DNA of 64,000 bases from the NCBI RefSeq assembly GCF_001750725.1, contig NZ_CP017279.1, positions 2,976,001-3,040,000 of the forward strand. Reading direction: 5' to 3'. The notes below the pieces were generated by a model. It had not been told where the DNA came from. It did no database searches and saw nothing but the letters and a program-made list of their open reading frames with translations. Positions 43,893 to 53,679 of the stretch are shown here, one piece after another. Source of the stretch: Enterobacter ludwigii (GTDB lineage: Bacteria; Pseudomonadota; Gammaproteobacteria; Enterobacterales; Enterobacteriaceae). The translations under genes and the position numbers were made by a program. Position 1 is the first letter of the stretch, and the number at the start of each line of letters is the position of its first letter.

Positions 43893-43926
43893 GAAAACGG
43901 CAACCAAAGGTTGCCGTTTTGCTTTT
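43893..43926. terminator. Bidirectional terminator between the HAD gene and terC
   Basis: AAAACGGCAACC (43894-43905) and GGTTGCCGTTTT (43909-43920) form a perfect 12-bp stem with an AAA loop. T-runs stand on both sides. The plus-strand tail reaches the terC stop codon. Confidence 0.88.
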
Positions 43927-44953
43927 AATGGGCTTCTTTCTTACCCGGGAACATCACGCTGGTGATAATCCCCAGCGCCAGCACGCCAAGCACCACAAAC
44001 AGGCTCGCCGTGGCACCAATGCTGTAACCGTGGTGCCAGAAGTGATCGGTGGCATTTAATCCGAGCTTGAACGCCACGAAGAACAGCAGCAGCACCACCG
44101 CTTTCTCCAGATGCACCAGATACTGCTTCAGCGCTTCCAGCACGAAGTAGAGCGTACGCAAGCCGAGGATGGCGAACATCATTGCGCTGTAAATAATAAG
44201 CGGCTCACGGCTGACGGCAATAATGGCCGGCACGGAGTCAAACGCGAACATCACATCAGAGAGTTCCACGACCGCCACGCAAAGCAGCAGCGGCGTTGCG
44301 TAGCGTTTCACCTTCTTCACGCGTCCAACCATCACGTCCTGGTTTTCAGGTTTCTCCAGCTCCGCGTCCACCTCTTTCTGGGTCAGAATAAAGGCATTGC
44401 TGCTGATTTTAGGCCAGACAGGATAGAAGCGTTTCACCAGACGGTAAGCCAGATGGCCGGAGTAATCTTCAACCTCGTCACTCTCTTCATTACGTCTGAG
44501 CATCATCACCGCCGTCCAGCCGACGACCAGCGCGAAGATAACCTCGACGTAAGGCCCCAGACTTAACAAGCTGGTCCCGATGGCCACAAAGATACCGCGG
44601 AAAACAATCGCCCCCAGCACGCCCCAGTAGAGGACGCGGTGACGATATTTATCCGGCACGCCGAACCAGGCAAAAATCGCCATCATCACAAACAGGTTAT
44701 CGACGGAGAGCACCTCTTCCAGCGCGTAACCGGTGAGGAACAGGCTTGCCATCTCTGCGCCGTGGTGAACATACAGGAACCCGGCGAAAGCCATGGCCAT
44801 CATGACCCAGAAGAGGGACCACATGGCAGCGCTTTTCAGCGAGATCGGTTTATCGTGACGGTGCATAAAGAGGTCGATAAACATCGCCCCGACGGCCATC
44901 ACTACAAAGACAACAACGGTTTCAGTCGGGAAACCGAGATGAGCAGAAGCCAT
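43925..44953 (-). CDS. terC: TerC family integral membrane protein
   Basis: 342 residues from the ATG at 44953, which follows AAGGATAGATTC and where homology to TerC begins. Up to eight or nine membrane segments carry the family motifs SVDNLFVMM and VVELSDVMFAFDSVPAI, whose acidic residues probably bind metal. It is much closer to plasmid tellurite-resistance TerC than to E. coli Alx, yet no other ter gene is present. TerC/Alx proteins are linked to Mn(II) export and metalation of secreted enzymes. The frame stays open 81 codons upstream through a hydrophobic stretch; I treat that as leader sequence. Confidence 0.92.
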   Translation of the reverse strand: MASAHLGFPTETVVVFVVMAVGAMFIDLFMHRHDKPISLKSAAMWSLFWVMMAMAFAGFLYVHHGAEMASLFLTGYALEEVLSVDNLFVMMAIFAWFGVPDKYRHRVLYWGVLGAIVFRGIFVAIGTSLLSLGPYVEVIFALVVGWTAVMMLRRNEESDEVEDYSGHLAYRLVKRFYPVWPKISSNAFILTQKEVDAELEKPENQDVMVGRVKKVKRYATPLLLCVAVVELSDVMFAFDSVPAIIAVSREPLIIYSAMMFAILGLRTLYFVLEALKQYLVHLEKAVVLLLFFVAFKLGLNATDHFWHHGYSIGATASLFVVLGVLALGIITSVMFPGKKEAH

Positions 44954-45196
44954 GAATCTATCCTTAACATTCATCTGCACGCTGGCAGAGACAACGTTTG
45001 CAACAAAGAGAAAAAACGCCCGCATCACCGGGCAAGAGAATAATAATAACATTTCTTCGCGCCAGTACGGCAATGTAAATGTGATGTTAAAAATCGCCAG
45101 AGAGAGAAGAGATAAAAACGCATAGCGTGCGGATATCGCCTCCTGCAATACGACGGAGCCCCCCTCACCATTACACCTTGCAGAAAGGACAATCAT
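44954..45196 (-). promoter_or_regulatory. Long terC leader with internal intrinsic terminator
   Basis: About 240 bases precede terC without another gene. On the minus strand GCCCG-GTGATG-CGGGC-GTTTTTTC (stem 45018-45033) forms a short GC-rich terminator 65 bases before the start codon. A terminator ahead of a TerC/Alx gene recalls the Mn(II)- and pH-responsive leader of E. coli alx, but I could not match the yybP-ykoY consensus (no GGGGAGUAG core seen). Confidence 0.5.
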
Positions 45197-45609
45197 TCTT
45201 TCGTAGATTATTCGTTCACTATCCTGAAAATTTTATTATCAGGGCAGCATCCCACATTCGGCGAATAGTAAATAAGCCGTAAAAATCTCAATAAAAATAC
45301 TGATAAAACCCTGAGAGAATACACGCTAACCAATTGATTTTAAATGAACAAAACGCAAATCACGCCGTTCTCACTTTATTTTTCTCAGGCTCTTGTTAAT
45401 CTAACTCCAACATATATTCAGACTTCTGACTATGGAAGTTTGCCACCATGACTGATAAGCAATCACCATGACTGATAAGCAATGATGAATACCTGCGCTT
45501 ACTTTTCGCAATAACTTTATATCCGCATACCGCGGCCACAATAACTCTTTTGAGTTACTAACCTGAAAAATAATGTTCAAACATTTACACACTGAGGAAT
45601 ATTTTAAAA
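45197..45609. other. AT-rich regulatory region ahead of the fimbrial operon
   Basis: 413 bp without a gene between the divergent terC leader and pilin gene. It is AT-rich and has a 20-bp tandem duplication (45444-45483) and a small palindrome TAACTC-TTTT-GAGTTA (45542-45557). I saw no inverted repeats of the fimS type and no recombinase gene, so phase switching by inversion is not indicated. H-NS control is plausible from composition. Confidence 0.55.
45444..45483 (+). repeat. Tandem 20-bp direct repeat upstream of pilin gene
   Basis: Two exact adjacent copies (45444-45463 and 45464-45483), each beginning CACCATGACTGATAAG. The duplication lies about 130 bp upstream of the pilin start. It could be a doubled regulator site or a slippage product. 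Confidence 0.95.
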
Positions 45610-46167
45610 ATGAATAAATCTGTCATTACCATGGGAATCTTATTGGCTGCAATTGCCAGCCCGTCCAGCCATGCGGCAGATCCCGGAAAAGGTGCAGGTC
45701 AAATCAACTTCACGGGCACTATTACCGCGAGCACCTGTGATGTCGATATTAACGGACAGGGAGGGAACCCAACAATTCAAATGGGCACCATCTCTTCTTC
45801 TGCATTTAAAGCGAAAGGCGATGTTGCAGGTATTCACCGTATTCGGATAGACCTGTCTAACTGCGATACAGGCGTCCTTAAAGAAGCCGGAGCACGATTT
45901 GGCGGTGCCTATGATCCTATTGATAAAGATCTCCTTGCGCTTAAAACCGGCGACGATGCAGCAACCGGTTTAGGGATTGAATTTCTGAATGAAGATGGAA
46001 CACAGCTGAAATTGGGCGAGAATCCAAATAAATTTATCCCTATCACCGGTACCGGAACTACGGGTACAGCCACCCTGATGTATTCAGCCCGTTATAAATC
46101 ATCCGCTGATGCGGTGACCCCTGGTAAGGCAGACGCGGTTGCGGATTACACGATTATCTATAAATAA
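45610..46167 (+). CDS. Major fimbrial subunit (chaperone-usher pilin)
   Basis: 185 residues with a signal peptide ending SSHA (about 1-22). The pilin domain has the usual start INFTGTITASTCDVDI, the paired cysteines (in STCDV and LSNCDTG) and a C-terminal beta strand ADAVADYTIIYK with penultimate Tyr. It is polymerised by donor-strand exchange into the fimbrial shaft. First gene of a five-gene operon; the 55-bp gap to the chaperone holds a strong hairpin. The start follows TGAGGAATATTTTAAAA. Confidence 0.92.
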   Translation: MNKSVITMGILLAAIASPSSHAADPGKGAGQINFTGTITASTCDVDINGQGGNPTIQMGTISSSAFKAKGDVAGIHRIRIDLSNCDTGVLKEAGARFGGAYDPIDKDLLALKTGDDAATGLGIEFLNEDGTQLKLGENPNKFIPITGTGTTGTATLMYSARYKSSADAVTPGKADAVADYTIIYK

Positions 46168-46180
46168 ATTACTCAACTCA

Positions 46181-46209
46181 GTTCCGGGCAATGAATAATA
46201 GCCCGGAAC
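46181..46209 (+). promoter_or_regulatory. Intercistronic hairpin between pilin and chaperone genes
   Basis: GTTCCGGGC and GCCCGGAAC are perfect 9-bp arms with an 11-base loop and no T-run. The position fits an mRNA stabiliser or processing stop that keeps pilin transcript in excess over the assembly genes. Confidence 0.65.
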
Positions 46210-46222
46210 GCAAGGATGTTTT

Positions 46223-46906
46223 ATGTTAAGGAAACGCAATCTGACGCTGCTGGCCCTGCTCTTTGGCTCTTATATATCACACGCCAGTGTGACCTTATCC
46301 AACACGCGTGTGGTCTATGATGCTGATAAGAAAGAGAGCAATATTAACGTCAGAAATAATACTGCAACCCCGTTTCTGGTCCAAAGCTGGGTACAGGGCA
46401 ATGATTCACAGGCTACCAAAGCCCCGTTTGTTGTGACGCCACCGCTTTTCCGCATGGATGCAGGCAAAGCCAACGCGCTACGTATTATCTATACCGGCAC
46501 AACGTTACCGCAGGATCGCGAGTCCCTTTTCTGGCTCAACGTTAAATCGATCCCGTCCTCATCAAGAGAGGATATCAACAAACTTCAAATAGCGGTAAAT
46601 ACCCGGGTCAAATTATTTTATCGTCCGACGAATTTAGCGGATGAACCGGCTGACATCGGCAAGAACGTTCGGTGGTCTATTGAAAATAATGAGCTCATCG
46701 TACGCAATAACTCTTCATATTACATTTCTTTTGCAGAGGTGACGATCAATAACAAAAAATGGTCAGAGTTTGACATGCTGGAGCCTAAAAGCAGCAAAGC
46801 ATTTACGCTGAATAACTCGCCACTAAAAAACAACGCAACCGTACACTGGAAATATATCAATGATTATGGCGGCAACAGCCAGATAATAACGCAAAAAATA
46901 GAATAA
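46223..46906 (+). CDS. Periplasmic fimbrial chaperone
   Basis: 227 residues with a signal peptide (about 1-21). Two immunoglobulin-like domains follow; N-terminal strands contain TRVVYDADKKESNINVRNN, and the G1 donor strand region includes RMDAGKANALRIIYTG and KLQIAVNTRVKLFYRP, signatures of PapD-like chaperones. It folds pilin subunits by donor-strand complementation and delivers them to the usher. Ribosome binding site AAGGATG. Linked to usher by 36 bp. Confidence 0.93.
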   Translation: MLRKRNLTLLALLFGSYISHASVTLSNTRVVYDADKKESNINVRNNTATPFLVQSWVQGNDSQATKAPFVVTPPLFRMDAGKANALRIIYTGTTLPQDRESLFWLNVKSIPSSSREDINKLQIAVNTRVKLFYRPTNLADEPADIGKNVRWSIENNELIVRNNSSYYISFAEVTINNKKWSEFDMLEPKSSKAFTLNNSPLKNNATVHWKYINDYGGNSQIITQKIE

Positions 46907-46942
46907 CAATTTTAACACAATAACCTCGCAGGGGTATTTTTC

Positions 46943-49435
46943 ATGACTATATTTTGGGGCATTCGTCCGGTGCTTTGCTTTGCCTGGATATTACCCAGCG
47001 CATTATACGCCAGTGATTATTTCGACCCAGCCTTTCTGGAAACAGGGGGCGCGCCGCGTACCGCTGTCGATCTTTCTCTCTTTGAGAATAAAGAAAGCCA
47101 GACTCCTGGCGTTTATCGTGTTGATCTCTTCCTCAACAATAAAATGATCGACACGCGCGATATCACGTTTCGACTCGAAGAGAACGCGCAGCATAAAAAT
47201 ATCCTCGCACCATGTCTTAGCAAAGAGGTGCTCCAGTCGCTTGGCGTTAAAACGGCGGCCTTCCCATTGCTGCAGGACGATACCAAGAGCTGTGCGAATC
47301 TGTCGGCTATTCCTCACGCGAGCAGTGAATTTGATTTCAGCGAGCAGGCATTGAGGCTCAGCCTCCCTCAGGCGGCCCTGGACAATCAGGCTCACGGCTA
47401 CATCGATCCTGCTCGTCGGGAACAGGGTATTCCAGGCCTCACGCTCAGCTACAACTACAGCGGTGCCAGCTGGACATCGAACAACGGGACAGGAACCGAT
47501 AGTCAGTATCTCAGCCTGCGTCCGGGACTGAATGTTGGTCCATGGCGTTTACGCAATTTTTCGACCTGGAGTAATAGTCAGGGCCAAGCTGGTCGCTGGG
47601 ACTCCATCTATACCTATTTGCAGCGCGATATTACCGCCCTGAACAGCCAGCTGATTGTCGGAGATAATAGTTCTACCTCTGACGTCTTTGACAGTACGCC
47701 GTTTCGCGGCGTGCAGCTCTATTCCGACGAACAGATGCTTCCAGGCAGTTTGCGGGGCTATGCCCCTGTGATCCGCGGTATTGCCCGCACGAATGCCCAG
47801 GTCACCATTTTCCAGAACGGTTATAGCATTTATCAAAGCTATGTACCGCCCGGCGAGTTTGTCATCAACGATCTTTACCTTGGCAGCAGCGGCGAGCTGA
47901 AAGTTGTGGTGAAAGAGGCGGATGGAAGCGAGCAAGTCTCTTTAGTGCCTTACGCGTCGTTAGCGATTATGCAGCGTGAAGGACAATATAAATATGAAGT
48001 CATTAGCGGCACCTACCGTTCCAGCAGCAGCGATGCTGAAAATGCGCCGTTTTCACAAGGAAGCCTGATTTACGGTCTTCCGTGGGAAACCTCGATATAC
48101 GGCGGCATGCAGGCCGCCAGTAAATACCAGTCCCTGCTCTTTGGCATGGGAAAAAACCTGGGCGATTTTGGCGCACTGTCATTTGATATTACCCAGGCCT
48201 GGGCAACCACTAAACAGGCAGAGAAAAATCGGGGGCAGTCGCTACGCCTTCGCTATAACAAAAATCTGCTGTCTACCGGCACTAACGTTGCGATTGCGGG
48301 TTATCGCTACTCAACGGCCGATTACTACACGCTGGGTGAAACGCTGAGTAGTTATCACTCGCAGCACTCGCTTCCGGAACGACGTCGTAGCCGTACAGAA
48401 CTGACGCTTAACCAAAACCTGGGAAATAACCTCGGCTACCTCTCCTCCATGCTGGTGAGCGAGGAATACCACACCAGCAAAAAACGCACCACCTCCGCCA
48501 CGCTGGGCTATGGCAATAGCTGGAACGGGATCAGCTATAGCCTGAATTACAGCCATCACCTGAACGTGACGAAAGAGGATAACCAGCGTCGCTATAACCA
48601 GGACAATCTGTTCAGCCTGAGCGTGAGCGTTCCCCTGGACAAATGGCTCCGCTCCGCGCGCGCCGGTTACTCATTTTCCGCAGCTGAAAACCGCGCGCCT
48701 GGTCATAGCGTTTCCCTGAGCGGCAGCGCCCTTGAGGACAATAATCTTAACTGGAGCGTACAACAGAACATCAACCCAGGCAGCCAGGCAAACAGCAGCG
48801 ATGCATCGCTTAGCTATAGCGGACGCTATGCGCAGGTTGGCGCCGGGTATGGTTATAGCCGGGACGCACAGCGACTGAATTATAACCTGCGAGGGGGCGT
48901 GCTGGTTCATCCGCATGGCGTCACGCTGGCGCAATCGCTGGGTGAAACGGTCGCGTTGGTTGAAGCGCCGGATGCGGCAGGCGTCAGCTTGCGTAACCAC
49001 GCTGGCGTAAGCACCGACTCCCGGGGCTATGCCGTGGTGCCTTACCTGGCGCCTTATCAGGAGAGCACAATCCAACTTCGTCCCGACACGCTCCCAGATG
49101 ATGTTGAACTGGAAAGCAATAGCCATAAGGTCGTTCCCACCCGGGGAGCCATCGTTCGGGCACGTTTCAGCACGGCGGTAGGTAAACGCCTGATGATGAC
49201 GCTGACAAATTCGCAGGGCAAACCGATCCCCTTCGGCGCCGTTGTTTCTCAAAACGCCATCAGCAGCATTGTGGGTGATGAAGGCAGCGTATTCCTGACC
49301 GGGATGGCGGACAAAGGGACGCTAGACGTAAGCTGGGGTAAGAGGGCCGATCAACGATGTCAGGTTCACTATCAGCTTTCTGGCCAGGAACCCACGATTA
49401 GCGGAATTGTGCAGTTAATGCAGACCTGCAAATAG
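46943..49435 (+). CDS. Fimbrial outer membrane usher
   Basis: 830 residues, the FimD/PapC size. A signal peptide (about 1-23) is followed by the periplasmic N-domain (DYFDPAFLETGG), the 24-strand barrel with the plug region (QITIFQNG-type VTIFQNGYSIYQSYVPPGEF), and two C-terminal domains. A C-terminal Cys pair appears in DQRCQVHY and LMQTCK. It secretes and polymerises the pilus. It lies between chaperone and adhesin genes. Confidence 0.94.
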   Translation: MTIFWGIRPVLCFAWILPSALYASDYFDPAFLETGGAPRTAVDLSLFENKESQTPGVYRVDLFLNNKMIDTRDITFRLEENAQHKNILAPCLSKEVLQSLGVKTAAFPLLQDDTKSCANLSAIPHASSEFDFSEQALRLSLPQAALDNQAHGYIDPARREQGIPGLTLSYNYSGASWTSNNGTGTDSQYLSLRPGLNVGPWRLRNFSTWSNSQGQAGRWDSIYTYLQRDITALNSQLIVGDNSSTSDVFDSTPFRGVQLYSDEQMLPGSLRGYAPVIRGIARTNAQVTIFQNGYSIYQSYVPPGEFVINDLYLGSSGELKVVVKEADGSEQVSLVPYASLAIMQREGQYKYEVISGTYRSSSSDAENAPFSQGSLIYGLPWETSIYGGMQAASKYQSLLFGMGKNLGDFGALSFDITQAWATTKQAEKNRGQSLRLRYNKNLLSTGTNVAIAGYRYSTADYYTLGETLSSYHSQHSLPERRRSRTELTLNQNLGNNLGYLSSMLVSEEYHTSKKRTTSATLGYGNSWNGISYSLNYSHHLNVTKEDNQRRYNQDNLFSLSVSVPLDKWLRSARAGYSFSAAENRAPGHSVSLSGSALEDNNLNWSVQQNINPGSQANSSDASLSYSGRYAQVGAGYGYSRDAQRLNYNLRGGVLVHPHGVTLAQSLGETVALVEAPDAAGVSLRNHAGVSTDSRGYAVVPYLAPYQESTIQLRPDTLPDDVELESNSHKVVPTRGAIVRARFSTAVGKRLMMTLTNSQGKPIPFGAVVSQNAISSIVGDEGSVFLTGMADKGTLDVSWGKRADQRCQVHYQLSGQEPTISGIVQLMQTCK

Positions 49436-49461
49436 CCCGTTAATAAATTAAGGAATTGAAT

Positions 49462-50499
49462 ATGAAAAAATTAGCGTTAGCTGTGTGCCTGGCAGTAGGG
49501 GGATTAATAGGATCACCTGCCTTTGCTGCTGTCGAAGGGAGCTGTTGGCCGACATCAAACTCAGGGCAGGCGGCAGAATTTATGATTAATAAAAAACTTA
49601 CGGCTGACCATATACCCGGCGTGGTACAAAGCGATTGGAATAATGGGGAAGATTTCAGGGGAACTTGCTTTTGTAGAGATTCATCCCAAAGAGAAAGCGT
49701 ACACTTTAAGTTTACCAGTAACGTGCTGAGCGCGGGAAGTGGTAAACCTAATGGCGATTTTATTTACTATCCATTTGATAATGAGAAAGGTATTAATATT
49801 GGTTTTAAGGTGGGCATTGGTGGAAGTGTTGGCCACCCTGTCCCCGTTGATCTGCAAAATAATACGGGTGTCAGTAATCAAAACAACATCAATTTCGACT
49901 GTGATGATGTCCATGAAGATCATCCATTTAACACAGGCACTGTCGGCACTGTCTCACTGGAGTTAACCAGGAACATCACAGGCCATCATGAATATCCTGA
50001 ACGAGAGTTACTTACAATTTACGCTCGGAAAGCATCCGGAGCCTTCGACCTCACAAAACCGTTTGTTAAGCTCAAATTTGAATTGAGTATTACTATCCCA
50101 CCAAACTGCAGAATTAATGGTGGAGAAGTCATTAACATCCCGTTTGGCGATATCACCGCTAATGAATTCACGCCTGAGGCCAGCAGTAAGCAAAAAAGCA
50201 TTCCGCTCAAGGTTACCTGTGATGACGAAGCGGATGTCAGCAAGGCGAATATTAAATTTCGCACCTCCGATTTCAATGACGCGGGTTTAATCAGAACCCG
50301 TAATAAAGAAGGAGGGGAACGCAACGATGTAGGGATAAAACTAGAACACAACGGTAATAAAATTGATGGTAGCAGTTCGGCGATACCGACACAGGAGGGT
50401 AATGTCACGATTATAGCAACACCCGTGCAGCAAGGAGAAAAATCTCCAGAACCGGGAAAATTTGAAGCCACATCAACGCTGGATTTCGAGTTTAAATAG
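49462..50499 (+). CDS. Two-domain fimbrial tip adhesin
   Basis: 345 residues from the ATG at 49462 after AAGGAATTGAAT. A signal peptide (about 1-22) precedes a lectin-like N-terminal domain with four cysteines (GSCWP, GTCFCRD, FDCDD). The C-terminal pilin domain begins near IPPNCRINGGEVI, has VTCDDEAD and ends LDFEFK. Layout and gene position resemble tip adhesins of Yeh/Fim-type fimbriae. The N-terminal half is AT-rich against the usher, a sign of separate origin or fast change. Receptor unknown. Confidence 0.82.
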   Translation: MKKLALAVCLAVGGLIGSPAFAAVEGSCWPTSNSGQAAEFMINKKLTADHIPGVVQSDWNNGEDFRGTCFCRDSSQRESVHFKFTSNVLSAGSGKPNGDFIYYPFDNEKGINIGFKVGIGGSVGHPVPVDLQNNTGVSNQNNINFDCDDVHEDHPFNTGTVGTVSLELTRNITGHHEYPERELLTIYARKASGAFDLTKPFVKLKFELSITIPPNCRINGGEVINIPFGDITANEFTPEASSKQKSIPLKVTCDDEADVSKANIKFRTSDFNDAGLIRTRNKEGGERNDVGIKLEHNGNKIDGSSSAIPTQEGNVTIIATPVQQGEKSPEPGKFEATSTLDFEFK

Positions 50500-50607
50500 A
50501 GAAAAAACTTAACCCACTAAAGAAAGACCTTATTTCACTGTAACTCATCGCACTTTAAAAATGAGTTGCCGGATATTTAAAAATGGATTTGTATAAGGAT
50601 ATAAAAC

Positions 50608-52428
50608 ATGAAACTTAAAAATAAAACGCGTGTCGCACTTTACGTTGCAGCCTTAGTAGGTACAGGCTTCACGGCGTCACAGGTTATTGCCAGCGATATC
50701 GAACCCTACTCTGCACCTTTCGCCATCAAGGGTGAAAAGAGTAAAGATTATTTCGGTATGACAATGACCACGATCGGTAAGTTTTCCGATAAGGACAATG
50801 GCTCGCATATCGCGGGCGAAGATATTGTGATTACAGCCCCCTGGGGAGATAGCGCGAAAGGGCTTGCGTACGTTATTTTCGGTACCTCCGGCGGAAAAAC
50901 CATGCAGGAAGTGAATAACGTAGGTGAATTCGATCCGCAAAACGCGCTTAAAATCTTCCACAGCAATAAAGCGAATAAGCCTGGCTCAGTGACGACAAAA
51001 TGGATGGGCGTCGCGGTACGTAAAATTGGTGATATTAACGGCGATGGGTATGACGATTTAGTCATTGCCTCCCACTGGCATGATCAAGTCTATATTATCT
51101 GGGGCGGGCCACATCACCGCACGGGCGCACGTCTTTCTAATCAGATAGACCTCAATGATATCGACAATGGCGACTCTCGCCTGGGTATTCGCATCCGTAC
51201 GGTAACTGCTTCAGGCTCTGCCAATACCGGTGGTTGGTTTGGCACCGCAGTCGGCCCAATTAAATATAAAAATTCTGCAGTGGCTAACAAGATGGTTGAT
51301 CTCGCTATCGGCGATATCGAAGGCACAGGCGGACGCGGCGGCGCTGTCATTATCTATGGCGCCCAAAAGCCAGGCGACCAGTGGCAGAACATCGATATTA
51401 AGCGCAACAGCCTGGGCGACTGGGAGATCCCGGCCACGACTGGCGCCTATATTCGCCCGCAGATGACCGCCACCAACGGTCCGGATAAACCGCTTAATAA
51501 CAACCTCGGTCAGCAAATCAGTGATGTGGGAGATATTAACGGCGATGGTTTCAGTGATTATCTGATCGTCGACCCGGAATCCGTCAATGAAGGCCGTGTT
51601 TCCGATAACAGTGGCACCAACGGACGCGGCACGGCGTATCTCGTTTACGGTAGCAGTTTCAACCAGGGGAATCTCGACATAGCCTCGTTAAATGCGACGC
51701 AAGCGACCCGTATTCACGGTATGGGGACGGCTTTCCTTGGTGGTCAGTCCGGGGGAGGAGAAGGGAGTAATGATCATAGCGCCTATACGCAGGACAAGCC
51801 CAATAACGGCACCATCACGCCATTAGGTAACCTCCTGAGTACTCACTATAACGCTTTTGCGATTAGCGCCCCTGCCGACATTGGCATCGATAAAAAACGC
51901 TCCGGGTTGGTCTGGATCATTAAAGGTAAGACTGATGGCAGTAAGTTGCCCTCCTCTTTGTTCCTCGATGCGGCGCATACCCGGCTTAACTACAACAAAA
52001 ACTTTAGCGTACGAGATGGCTATGCTATCTACGCCGACAGACCTGGCAGCAAACTGGCAGGGTTCGGGAATAGCATTCTTGGTAATGTGGATTTGAACGG
52101 CGACGGTAAGAAGGATCTGGTGATTGGCGATCCGAATGCGCTGAACTCCAGCGGCACTCAGGTTGGGGCCGTGTATGTGATCAACGGCGGCAAAAGCCTT
52201 GATGATTATGCTGACGATGAAGGCATGATCAATATTAATACGCTGGTGAGTGAAGGCGTTGCGAAAGTCTACTGGGGTAAAAATCAGTATGAAAAATTCG
52301 GCGCCTCCATTGCCGCTGGCAACTTTAATGGCTTCACCCAGGATAGTCTAGCCATTGGTTCTTACCGTGATAACAGCTGGACGGGTAAAGTCACCTTCCG
52401 CATTGCGGATTACATCATACCGGATTAA
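50608..52428 (+). CDS. Secreted FG-GAP (integrin alpha-like) beta-propeller protein in fimbrial operon
   Basis: 606 residues with a signal peptide (about 1-29, ending QVIAS). It contains repeated FG-GAP units: YFGMTMTTIGKF, WMGVAVRKIGDINGDGYDD, GQQISDVGDINGDGFSD, GFGNSILGNVDLNGDGKKD and KFGASIAAGNFNG, three of them with calcium-binding DxDGDGxxD-type loops. The units should fold as a beta-propeller like the integrin alpha head. It has no pilin fold or donor strand, so it is unlikely to be a pilus subunit; it may be secreted, periplasmic or bound to the adhesin. It follows the adhesin by 108 bp with AAGGATATAAAAC before ATG, and has a terminator after it. I know no described fimbrial system with such a member. 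Confidence 0.85.
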   Translation: MKLKNKTRVALYVAALVGTGFTASQVIASDIEPYSAPFAIKGEKSKDYFGMTMTTIGKFSDKDNGSHIAGEDIVITAPWGDSAKGLAYVIFGTSGGKTMQEVNNVGEFDPQNALKIFHSNKANKPGSVTTKWMGVAVRKIGDINGDGYDDLVIASHWHDQVYIIWGGPHHRTGARLSNQIDLNDIDNGDSRLGIRIRTVTASGSANTGGWFGTAVGPIKYKNSAVANKMVDLAIGDIEGTGGRGGAVIIYGAQKPGDQWQNIDIKRNSLGDWEIPATTGAYIRPQMTATNGPDKPLNNNLGQQISDVGDINGDGFSDYLIVDPESVNEGRVSDNSGTNGRGTAYLVYGSSFNQGNLDIASLNATQATRIHGMGTAFLGGQSGGGEGSNDHSAYTQDKPNNGTITPLGNLLSTHYNAFAISAPADIGIDKKRSGLVWIIKGKTDGSKLPSSLFLDAAHTRLNYNKNFSVRDGYAIYADRPGSKLAGFGNSILGNVDLNGDGKKDLVIGDPNALNSSGTQVGAVYVINGGKSLDDYADDEGMININTLVSEGVAKVYWGKNQYEKFGASIAAGNFNGFTQDSLAIGSYRDNSWTGKVTFRIADYIIPD

Positions 52429-52455
52429 TTCTTACATCGCCTGAATGAGGTCACC

Positions 52456-52485
52456 GCCGGGGAATAGTCACTCCCCGGCATTTTA
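52456..52485 (+). terminator. Terminator of the fimbrial operon
   Basis: GCCGGGGA (52456-52463) and TCCCCGGC (52472-52479) form an 8-bp stem with an 8-base loop, then ATTTTAA. It lies between the converging FG-GAP and yhiN genes. Confidence 0.8.
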
Positions 52486-52494
52486 ATGCATATT

Positions 52495-53679
52495 TTACAG
52501 CGCCTGCGCACACGCCCAGGCACTTGCCCATGCCCACTGGAAATTGTACCCGCCGAGCCAGCCGGTCACATCCATCACTTCGCCAATAAAATAGAGCCCC
52601 GGCACGTTGCGCGCTTCCATGGTGCGTGAGGAGAGTTCATGGGTGTCGACCCCGCCAAGCGTCACTTCCGCCGTGCGATAGCCTTCGGTGCCGTTGGGCT
52701 GCACCCGCCAGGCTGTCAACGTCTCAACCAGCACCGCCTGTTCGCGGCTGTTAAGCTGCTTGAGCGACACATCGGGGATCTGCCCCAGCACCTGCAAACA
52801 TTCCACCAGACGTTTTGGCAACTGCATGGCCAGCGTGTTTTTCAGGCTTTGATTCGGGTGCGCCGCGCGTTGCTCGTTGAGGAAAGCCTCCAGGTCGCAA
52901 TCGGGTAGCAGGTTAACCGTGACAAACTCCCCTGGCTGCCAGTAGCTGGAAATTTGCAATACCGCCGGGCCGGAAAGACCACGGTGGGTAAACAGCAGGT
53001 TTTCACGGAACACCGTACCGTCTTCAGCCGTAATGACCGACGGCACCGAGACGCCAGAAAGCGTCTGGAGCTGTTCCAGCAGGGGCTTATGCAGGGTGAA
53101 CGGTACCAGCCCCGCACGGGTGGGCAGCACGTTCAGGCCAAACTGTTCGGCAATCTTGTAGCCGAATGGTGAAGCACCGAGCCCCGGCATGGAGAGGCCA
53201 CCGCTGGCAATCACCAGGTTATCGGCGCTGACGCTTTCCCCGTTTAACTGCAGCGTGTAGCCCTGCTCATCGCGGGACACCTCCAGCACTTCCGTGCGCA
53301 GGCGCATCACCACGCCGCCCTTCTCGCACTCGGCCACCAGCATATCGACAATCTGCTGGGCGGAGTCATCACAGAACAGCTGGCCCAGCGTCTTCTCATG
53401 CCATGCGATACCGTGCTTACCCACCAGGTCGATAAAGTCCCACTGGGTGTAACGCGCCAGGGCCGATTTGCAAAAATGACGGTTCTGGCTCAGATAAGCT
53501 GCGGGTTCAACATAGAGATTTGTAAAGTTGCAGCGCCCGCCACCGGACATCAGAATTTTACGTCCTGGCTTTTTACCGTTATCCAGCAACAGCACGCGAC
53601 GACCCGCCTGTCCGGCCATCGCCGCACAAAACATACCCGCCGCACCGGCGCCAATTACCACGGCATCAAACCTTTCCAC
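52495..53679 (-). CDS. yhiN: FAD/NAD(P)-dependent oxidoreductase YhiN (HI0933/BaiN-like)
   Basis: 394 residues when started at the GTG (53679) that follows AGAGGATTTTGAC; E. coli YhiN begins at the same point with MERFDAV. A longer reading from the ATG at 53763 adds 28 residues without a good binding site. The FAD-binding motif VVIGAGAAGMF is at the N-terminus, followed by NGKKPGRKILMSGGGRCNFTN. The C-terminal GWLGGYNFQWAWASAWACAQ is conserved. Substrate is unknown. It converges with the fimbrial operon and is divergent from pitA. Confidence 0.94.
   Translation of the reverse strand: MERFDAVVIGAGAAGMFCAAMAGQAGRRVLLLDNGKKPGRKILMSGGGRCNFTNLYVEPAAYLSQNRHFCKSALARYTQWDFIDLVGKHGIAWHEKTLGQLFCDDSAQQIVDMLVAECEKGGVVMRLRTEVLEVSRDEQGYTLQLNGESVSADNLVIASGGLSMPGLGASPFGYKIAEQFGLNVLPTRAGLVPFTLHKPLLEQLQTLSGVSVPSVITAEDGTVFRENLLFTHRGLSGPAVLQISSYWQPGEFVTVNLLPDCDLEAFLNEQRAAHPNQSLKNTLAMQLPKRLVECLQVLGQIPDVSLKQLNSREQAVLVETLTAWRVQPNGTEGYRTAEVTLGGVDTHELSSRTMEARNVPGLYFIGEVMDVTGWLGGYNFQWAWASAWACAQAL

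Follow-up and report, generated by a model that had tools for sequence, protein, structure and literature searches.

An integrin-like FG-GAP propeller gene as the constant last member of a rare chaperone-usher operon in Enterobacteriaceae

A 64,000-nucleotide stretch of Enterobacter ludwigii DNA (assembly GCF_001750725.1, contig NZ_CP017279.1, positions 2,976,001 to 3,040,000 of the forward strand; hereafter the window) carries, as the last gene of a chaperone-usher fimbrial operon, an open reading frame (ORF) for an integrin-alpha-like, seven-bladed FG-GAP propeller protein of 606 residues (50608 to 52428, + strand, ATG start). Comparison with related genomes supports the conclusion that the propeller belongs constantly to this operon and did not come to lie beside it by chance. 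We place about even confidence in the broader proposal that the five genes, encoding a pilin, a chaperone, an usher, an adhesin and the propeller, form an operon lineage in which the propeller works alongside the fimbria outside the cell. Conserved gene order and common descent thus link an integrin-type propeller to an adhesive organelle, where its role can be tested by gene removal.

Every genome search was made in a sample of a larger group. The propeller was matched in four of 392 genomes of the family sample, namely the window's own and genomes G032, G219 and G027, whose proteins are 48-50%, 40-42% and 34-36% identical to that of the window, and in three of 60 genomes of the genus sample (the window's own, G393 and G409); the genus of G032 contributed one matching genome of one, and that of G219 one of six. 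Besides the window's own, the order (6/394 genomes) and class (4/321) samples yielded partial matches only, and these weak FG-GAP matches, in five order and three class genomes with one common to both, were not full-length and were left uncounted. A scan of named genome contigs, covering close relatives, found one locus (L002, Lelliottia nimipressuralis), which is not counted beside G409, and no propeller match was found on plasmids (tblastn) or in E. coli genomes (distant blastn). Six near-full-length copies were obtained including the window's, and the five that stand alone all close a pilin-chaperone-usher-adhesin-propeller operon and do so at three chromosomal locations: the three operons from the window's genus agree in their flanking ORFs by size and strand, and those of G032 and G219 have other neighbours. 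An earlier note, made from the window's sequence alone, had held that the association would be accidental if homologues lay mostly away from usher genes; only one of the six copies, that of G027, has no usher nearby. In the four genomes searched for the usher, out of the 57 genus genomes without a propeller, none of more than 50% identity was found among two candidates scored in each, and an operon of this usher lineage without the propeller may exist.

In the window, the operon opens on the + strand with a major pilin of 185 residues (45610 to 46167; Fimbrial domain PF00419, E = 3.7e-19), which by eye has an N-terminal extension fit for a donor strand, followed by a PapD-type periplasmic chaperone of 227 residues (46223 to 46906; PF00345, E = 1.9e-44; PF02753, E = 8.2e-16), an outer-membrane usher of 830 residues (46943 to 49435; PF00577, E = 1.9e-185; PF13954; PF13953) and an adhesin of 345 residues (49462 to 50499, counted from the ATG at 49462, the ORF being listed from a TTG at 49456), composed of a divergent N-terminal domain and a C-terminal pilin domain (PF00419, residues 207-346). 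These four adjacent genes all score well above the Pfam cut-offs. As the earlier note had described, the propeller gene comes directly after the tip adhesin gene, from which it is separated by 108 bp (50500 to 50607, + strand). The separate promoter that would have loosened the link was not seen there, the + strand of the gap holding no consensus promoter-like or terminator-like site, and the operon terminator placed after the propeller can be recognized as a terminator-like hairpin past the stop codon (52456 to 52479, + strand; eight pairs, seven of them GC), itself weak when taken alone, since the scan gave 17 sites against a shuffle mean of 12.5 (standard deviation 3.4). The adhesin-propeller gap measures 148 bp in G032 and 291 bp in G219; none of the three gaps contains a terminator-like or promoter-like site on the coding strand, and each lineage has a terminator-like site past the propeller gene. 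This pattern is weak evidence, because the scans returned sites at about shuffle level up to about twice that level. It is very improbable that the propeller gene landed by chance behind the operon: separate transcription is possible, most so across the 291-bp gap of G219, but the same slot in five of five stand-alone copies at three chromosomal sites, together with the placing of terminator-like sites after the propeller and not before it, stands against such an accident, which the gene order largely refutes.

The gap of the window also contains a small AACTCAT/ATGAGTT hairpin at 50541-50568, which is kept in three genus genomes with weak fold z-scores. A special conservation of the gap (96% mean column identity over 141 columns) was dropped as a candidate, because two other operon gaps differ less between the window and G393 (1/55 and 1/36, versus 11/108) and because the fold z-scores in the genus reach only -0.46 to -1.65. 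No Rfam family was matched at gathering score in 43900-52600. A terminator-like hairpin of symmetric stem, listed on the + strand, lies between the pilin and chaperone genes of G219 (L007:14897-14925) and possibly limits downstream expression in that operon. The guanine-plus-cytosine fraction is 0.477 in the pilin gene, 0.443 in the chaperone, 0.542 in the usher, 0.439 in the adhesin and 0.506 in the propeller, compared with 0.558 in the whole window, a profile that would fit acquired DNA.

The ushers of the propeller operons appear to share a common origin. In a midpoint-rooted tree of 36 rows, chosen by similarity to two of the ushers, the five propeller-linked ushers lie on one side of a branch with support 96/94, and the same branch has support of 94 in a tree of 50 rows that includes ushers near that of G219. 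Rows counted as having no propeller were so labelled either from the stretches L058-L075 or because their genome gave no match. The G219 usher forms a long branch, and by score it is closer to other ushers than to the window's. Identity to the window drops alike from G032 to G219 in the usher (62 to 47%), the propeller (48 to 40%) and the adhesin (31 to 25%). With an iterative pilin profile, at least one single-domain pilin was detected behind the usher gene in 16 of 18 related operons that have no propeller, the exceptions being L062 and L070. The four propeller operons examined in addition to the window's gave none, nor does the window's have one; the 18 operons are partly non-independent, with two each from G337 and G273 and one that is a second operon of G032.

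The propeller protein itself matches the Pfam FG-GAP family PF01839 with an E value of 1.6e-14 and 53.8 bits (cut-off 22.1), far too high a score for a chance match. The earlier note's reading of the ORF, its strand, length and start, holds, and its several FG-GAP units can be refined to seven blades, which constitute a whole integrin-type propeller according to both the sequence and the predicted model. Exactly three DxNGDG loops of calcium type were found, in agreement with that note: DINGDGYDD in blade 2 (residues 142-150; 51031 to 51057, + strand), DINGDGFSD in blade 4 (residues 309-317; 51532 to 51558, + strand) and DLNGDGKKD in blade 6 (residues 495-503; 52090 to 52116, + strand). Neither a Fimbrial domain nor the PilC/PilY1 family was matched at Pfam E values up to 1; the lack of a Fimbrial match upholds the view that the protein has no pilin fold and is not an ordinary subunit. 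The description of the protein as secreted stands as far as a Sec-type signal sequence seen by eye at about residues 1-28, and no further. The structural model predicted for the propeller alone, a check proposed in the same note, fits the integrin-alpha fold, with which animal integrins bind their ligands, aligning over residues 34-603. Integrin alpha chains are also the best sequence matches in the PDB, and on these grounds the protein could be thought to copy an animal integrin so as to engage host matrix or cells. We regard this as very unlikely, and the suggestion of a host-receptor mimic found no specific support: identity over the listed aligned structures is just 14-18%, the closest relatives found are enterobacterial, and integrin-type propellers are common across bacteria according to the available text of a survey (PMC3192720).

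The propeller is under constraint within the genus. Nonsynonymous (dN) and synonymous (dS) divergence was computed by NG86 among the window, G393 and G409, giving a propeller dN of 0.020-0.022 (dS 0.39-0.45), compared with dN values of 0.026-0.038 for the usher, 0.051-0.072 for the chaperone and 0.019-0.062 for the pilin. The N-terminal part of the adhesin, set by hand as the codons before 205, reaches a dN of 0.21-0.34 and a dS of 0.93-2.1, with dN/dS below 1, and the adhesin pilin domain a dN of 0.034-0.185. The 37 sites at which the propeller varies, seven of them in the first 32 residues and most in loops, are too few for assigning a binding face. The adhesin head (49462-50076 in the window, compared with L056 and L057) is far more divergent than the pilin, chaperone, usher and propeller; because it is divergent at silent sites too, with dN/dS below 1, the pattern is compatible with domain exchange and with diversification alike. 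As to a possible N-terminal lectin domain, the adhesin partially matches the LpfD model (residues 5-248; 69.8 bits, below the cut-off of 412); its C-terminal pilin domain is also present in the adhesins of L006 and L007. A structure prediction of the adhesin gave a poor model (pLDDT 52.2, pTM 0.46) and was set aside.

In the mechanism that we favour, the chaperone would pass the pilins and the two-domain adhesin to the usher for ordinary fimbria assembly, and the adhesin would probably sit directly on the major pilin rod, because the operon encodes no minor pilins. The propeller would be exported by Sec and fold in the periplasm, its calcium-type loops giving stability there or outside. The disc of a seven-bladed propeller is wider than the usher pore. 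Passage through the usher is therefore unlikely for this propeller, which has no pilin domain and whose disc is probably too wide, and another route would be taken, most likely a type II-like secreton. Once outside, the propeller may act as an invariant binding module, either docked on the pilus or on the adhesin, or linking the fimbria with a ligand in a matrix or on a surface. The G027 relative points the same way. Its propeller is a domain of a 1744-residue protein with Big_13/Big_6 repeats (L117:7612-12846), whose gene is divergent from genes for an ATP-binding cassette (ABC) transporter and HlyD and lies about 78 kb from an usher. Type I-secreted giant adhesins are laid out in this way, with an immunoglobulin-like (Ig) repeat gene next to those for an ABC transporter and HlyD, and the propeller module, by analogy, probably works outside the cell. 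We think it unlikely that the propeller is instead a periplasmic assembly factor, holding or capping the adhesin before the usher in place of the missing minor pilins. Such a role would accord with the Sec-type signal, the absence of a pilin domain and of minor pilins, and a slow evolution like that of the usher, but the adhesin is already served by a PapD-type chaperone, the nearest non-operon relative belongs to a protein in a type I-export setting, and integrin propellers are extracellular binding domains.

Several observations weigh against a propeller acting with the fimbria outside the cell. It does not diverge along with the variable head of the adhesin, an observation that speaks against the two being tightly fitted and suggests that the propeller may contact something invariant. 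At the start of the 291-bp gap of G219 lies a strong GC-rich hairpin (z = -2.51, one of 200 shuffles as low), so that separate expression of the propeller is possible there, although this hairpin has no T-run and no promoter-like site is present on the coding strand. No GspD-type secretin was found among the typed secretin hits of G219, nor GspE above cut-off, and the co-occurrence with a type II-like system described below is post hoc, comprises three lineages and was drawn against 28 controls of which nine are genomes of at most 2 Mb and one is 49% complete. Surface location, contact with the fimbria and a shared transcript are, moreover, steps that we infer. The propeller could be a separate adhesin or matrix protein, exported alone and without contact with the fimbria, the operon merely co-regulating two adhesive devices. 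We consider this unlikely: the independence from the adhesin head, the G027 relative without an adjacent usher, and the parallel of Vibrio cholerae Bap1, which in the available text contains FG-GAP repeats and attaches to vesicles by way of OmpT (PMC3789753), all speak for it, but the propeller has been inherited together with one usher lineage in three genera and exactly these operons lack minor pilins, which suggests a closer tie than shared regulation.

As to the route by which a propeller working alongside the fimbria might leave the cell, classical GspD and GspE score above cut-off in the window genome and G032, and GspE also in G393 and G409, but GspE does not in G219 and G027; classical type II secretion as the common exporter was rejected because G219 has no such GspE; the four secretin hits of that genome comprise one HofQ, one type III and one type II-like protein, with C17 left untyped. 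A type II-like system was observed at L112 (window genome C1:38000-52000), L118 and L120 (G032) and L119 (G219). Its 627-residue secretin scores under the GspD cut-off, its ATPase has T2SSE and MshEN domains, and GspF-like, PilMNOP-like and pseudopilin-like proteins are recognizable by eye. Protein comparison places it once in the window genome, twice in G032, with one copy (L118) some 3.7 kb away from the fimbrial operon (L006), and once in G219; a DNA match places it in G393, and a secretin hit and an ATPase hit similar in size and spacing suggest it in G409. In the first 80 kb of four further genomes of the genus, neither the system nor its flanks were matched, a result without bearing on its presence there. 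With an E-value limit of 1e-100, one genus of the 29 sampled in the family, that of the window, yielded the secretin, and the 28 misses, which include G027, served as controls, the 49% complete one being G028. Set against the 19 larger genomes, none of which yielded the secretin at this limit, the presence of the system in three of three propeller lineages gives a Fisher value of 0.0006, for a pattern seen before the comparison. In E. coli, no copy of the ATPase gene covering 80% of the query was found. On plasmids, 21 records hold at least 80% of the secretin; the 20 listed are 27-35% identical, the first fifteen from Burkholderiales-type genera by name and the rest from Aliiroseovarius, so distant kin of the system exist elsewhere. 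That two export pathways would serve one organelle, a dedicated type II-like secreton delivering an invariant integrin-like head that docks extracellularly on the fimbria and replaces the minor tip pilins, is distinctly unlikely. Should the propeller work with the pilus, chaperone-usher fimbriae would acquire a part belonging neither to the pilins nor to the chaperones. This rare operon family gives bacterial integrin-like propellers a concrete adhesive setting.

In titles and abstract beginnings of the open-licence literature, among the matches listed, no fimbrial system with a propeller component is described, as the earlier note had also stated, and FG-GAP, fimbrial and usher occur together once, in unrelated places. 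Like integrin alpha chains and bacterial integrin-type propellers (Chouhan et al. 2011, PMC3192720), the window's protein has seven FG-GAP-like blades, DxNGDG loops and the predicted fold; the available text of that survey calls the bacterial proteins widespread and their function and location unknown. Its strict bacterial set carries the Cage motif and DxNGDG in all seven blades, whereas a simple regular expression with hand-set blade limits finds the Cage motif (G..P..G) in four of seven and DxNGDG in three of seven blades of the window's propeller. In contrast to integrin alpha, signal and propeller fill the 606-residue ORF, leaving no leg domains, and no beta chain was seen, no search having been aimed at one. 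The Vibrio cholerae matrix proteins Bap1 and RbmC share FG-GAP repeats and a role in adhesion but have extra VCBS and lectin domains, and the available text of PMC3789753 and PMC7841849 gives no tie to a chaperone-usher operon; no literature linking them to type II secretion was found. The G027 protein holds the same propeller, fused to Ig-like repeats beside ABC and HlyD genes and with no adjacent usher. PilY1/PilC, the tip protein of type IVa pili, contains a propeller and resembles the window's protein, as far as the available sources describe it, in binding calcium and serving a pilus, but it belongs to another pilus class and a family that the window's protein does not match. Closest in layout are the Fim/Lpf-type operons, with which the window's operon shares a pilin, a PapD-type chaperone, an usher (whose best NCBIfam matches, PRK15193 and LpfC, each score under the cut-off) and an adhesin that has a pilin domain, and from which it differs in having a propeller gene where a single-domain minor pilin follows the adhesin.
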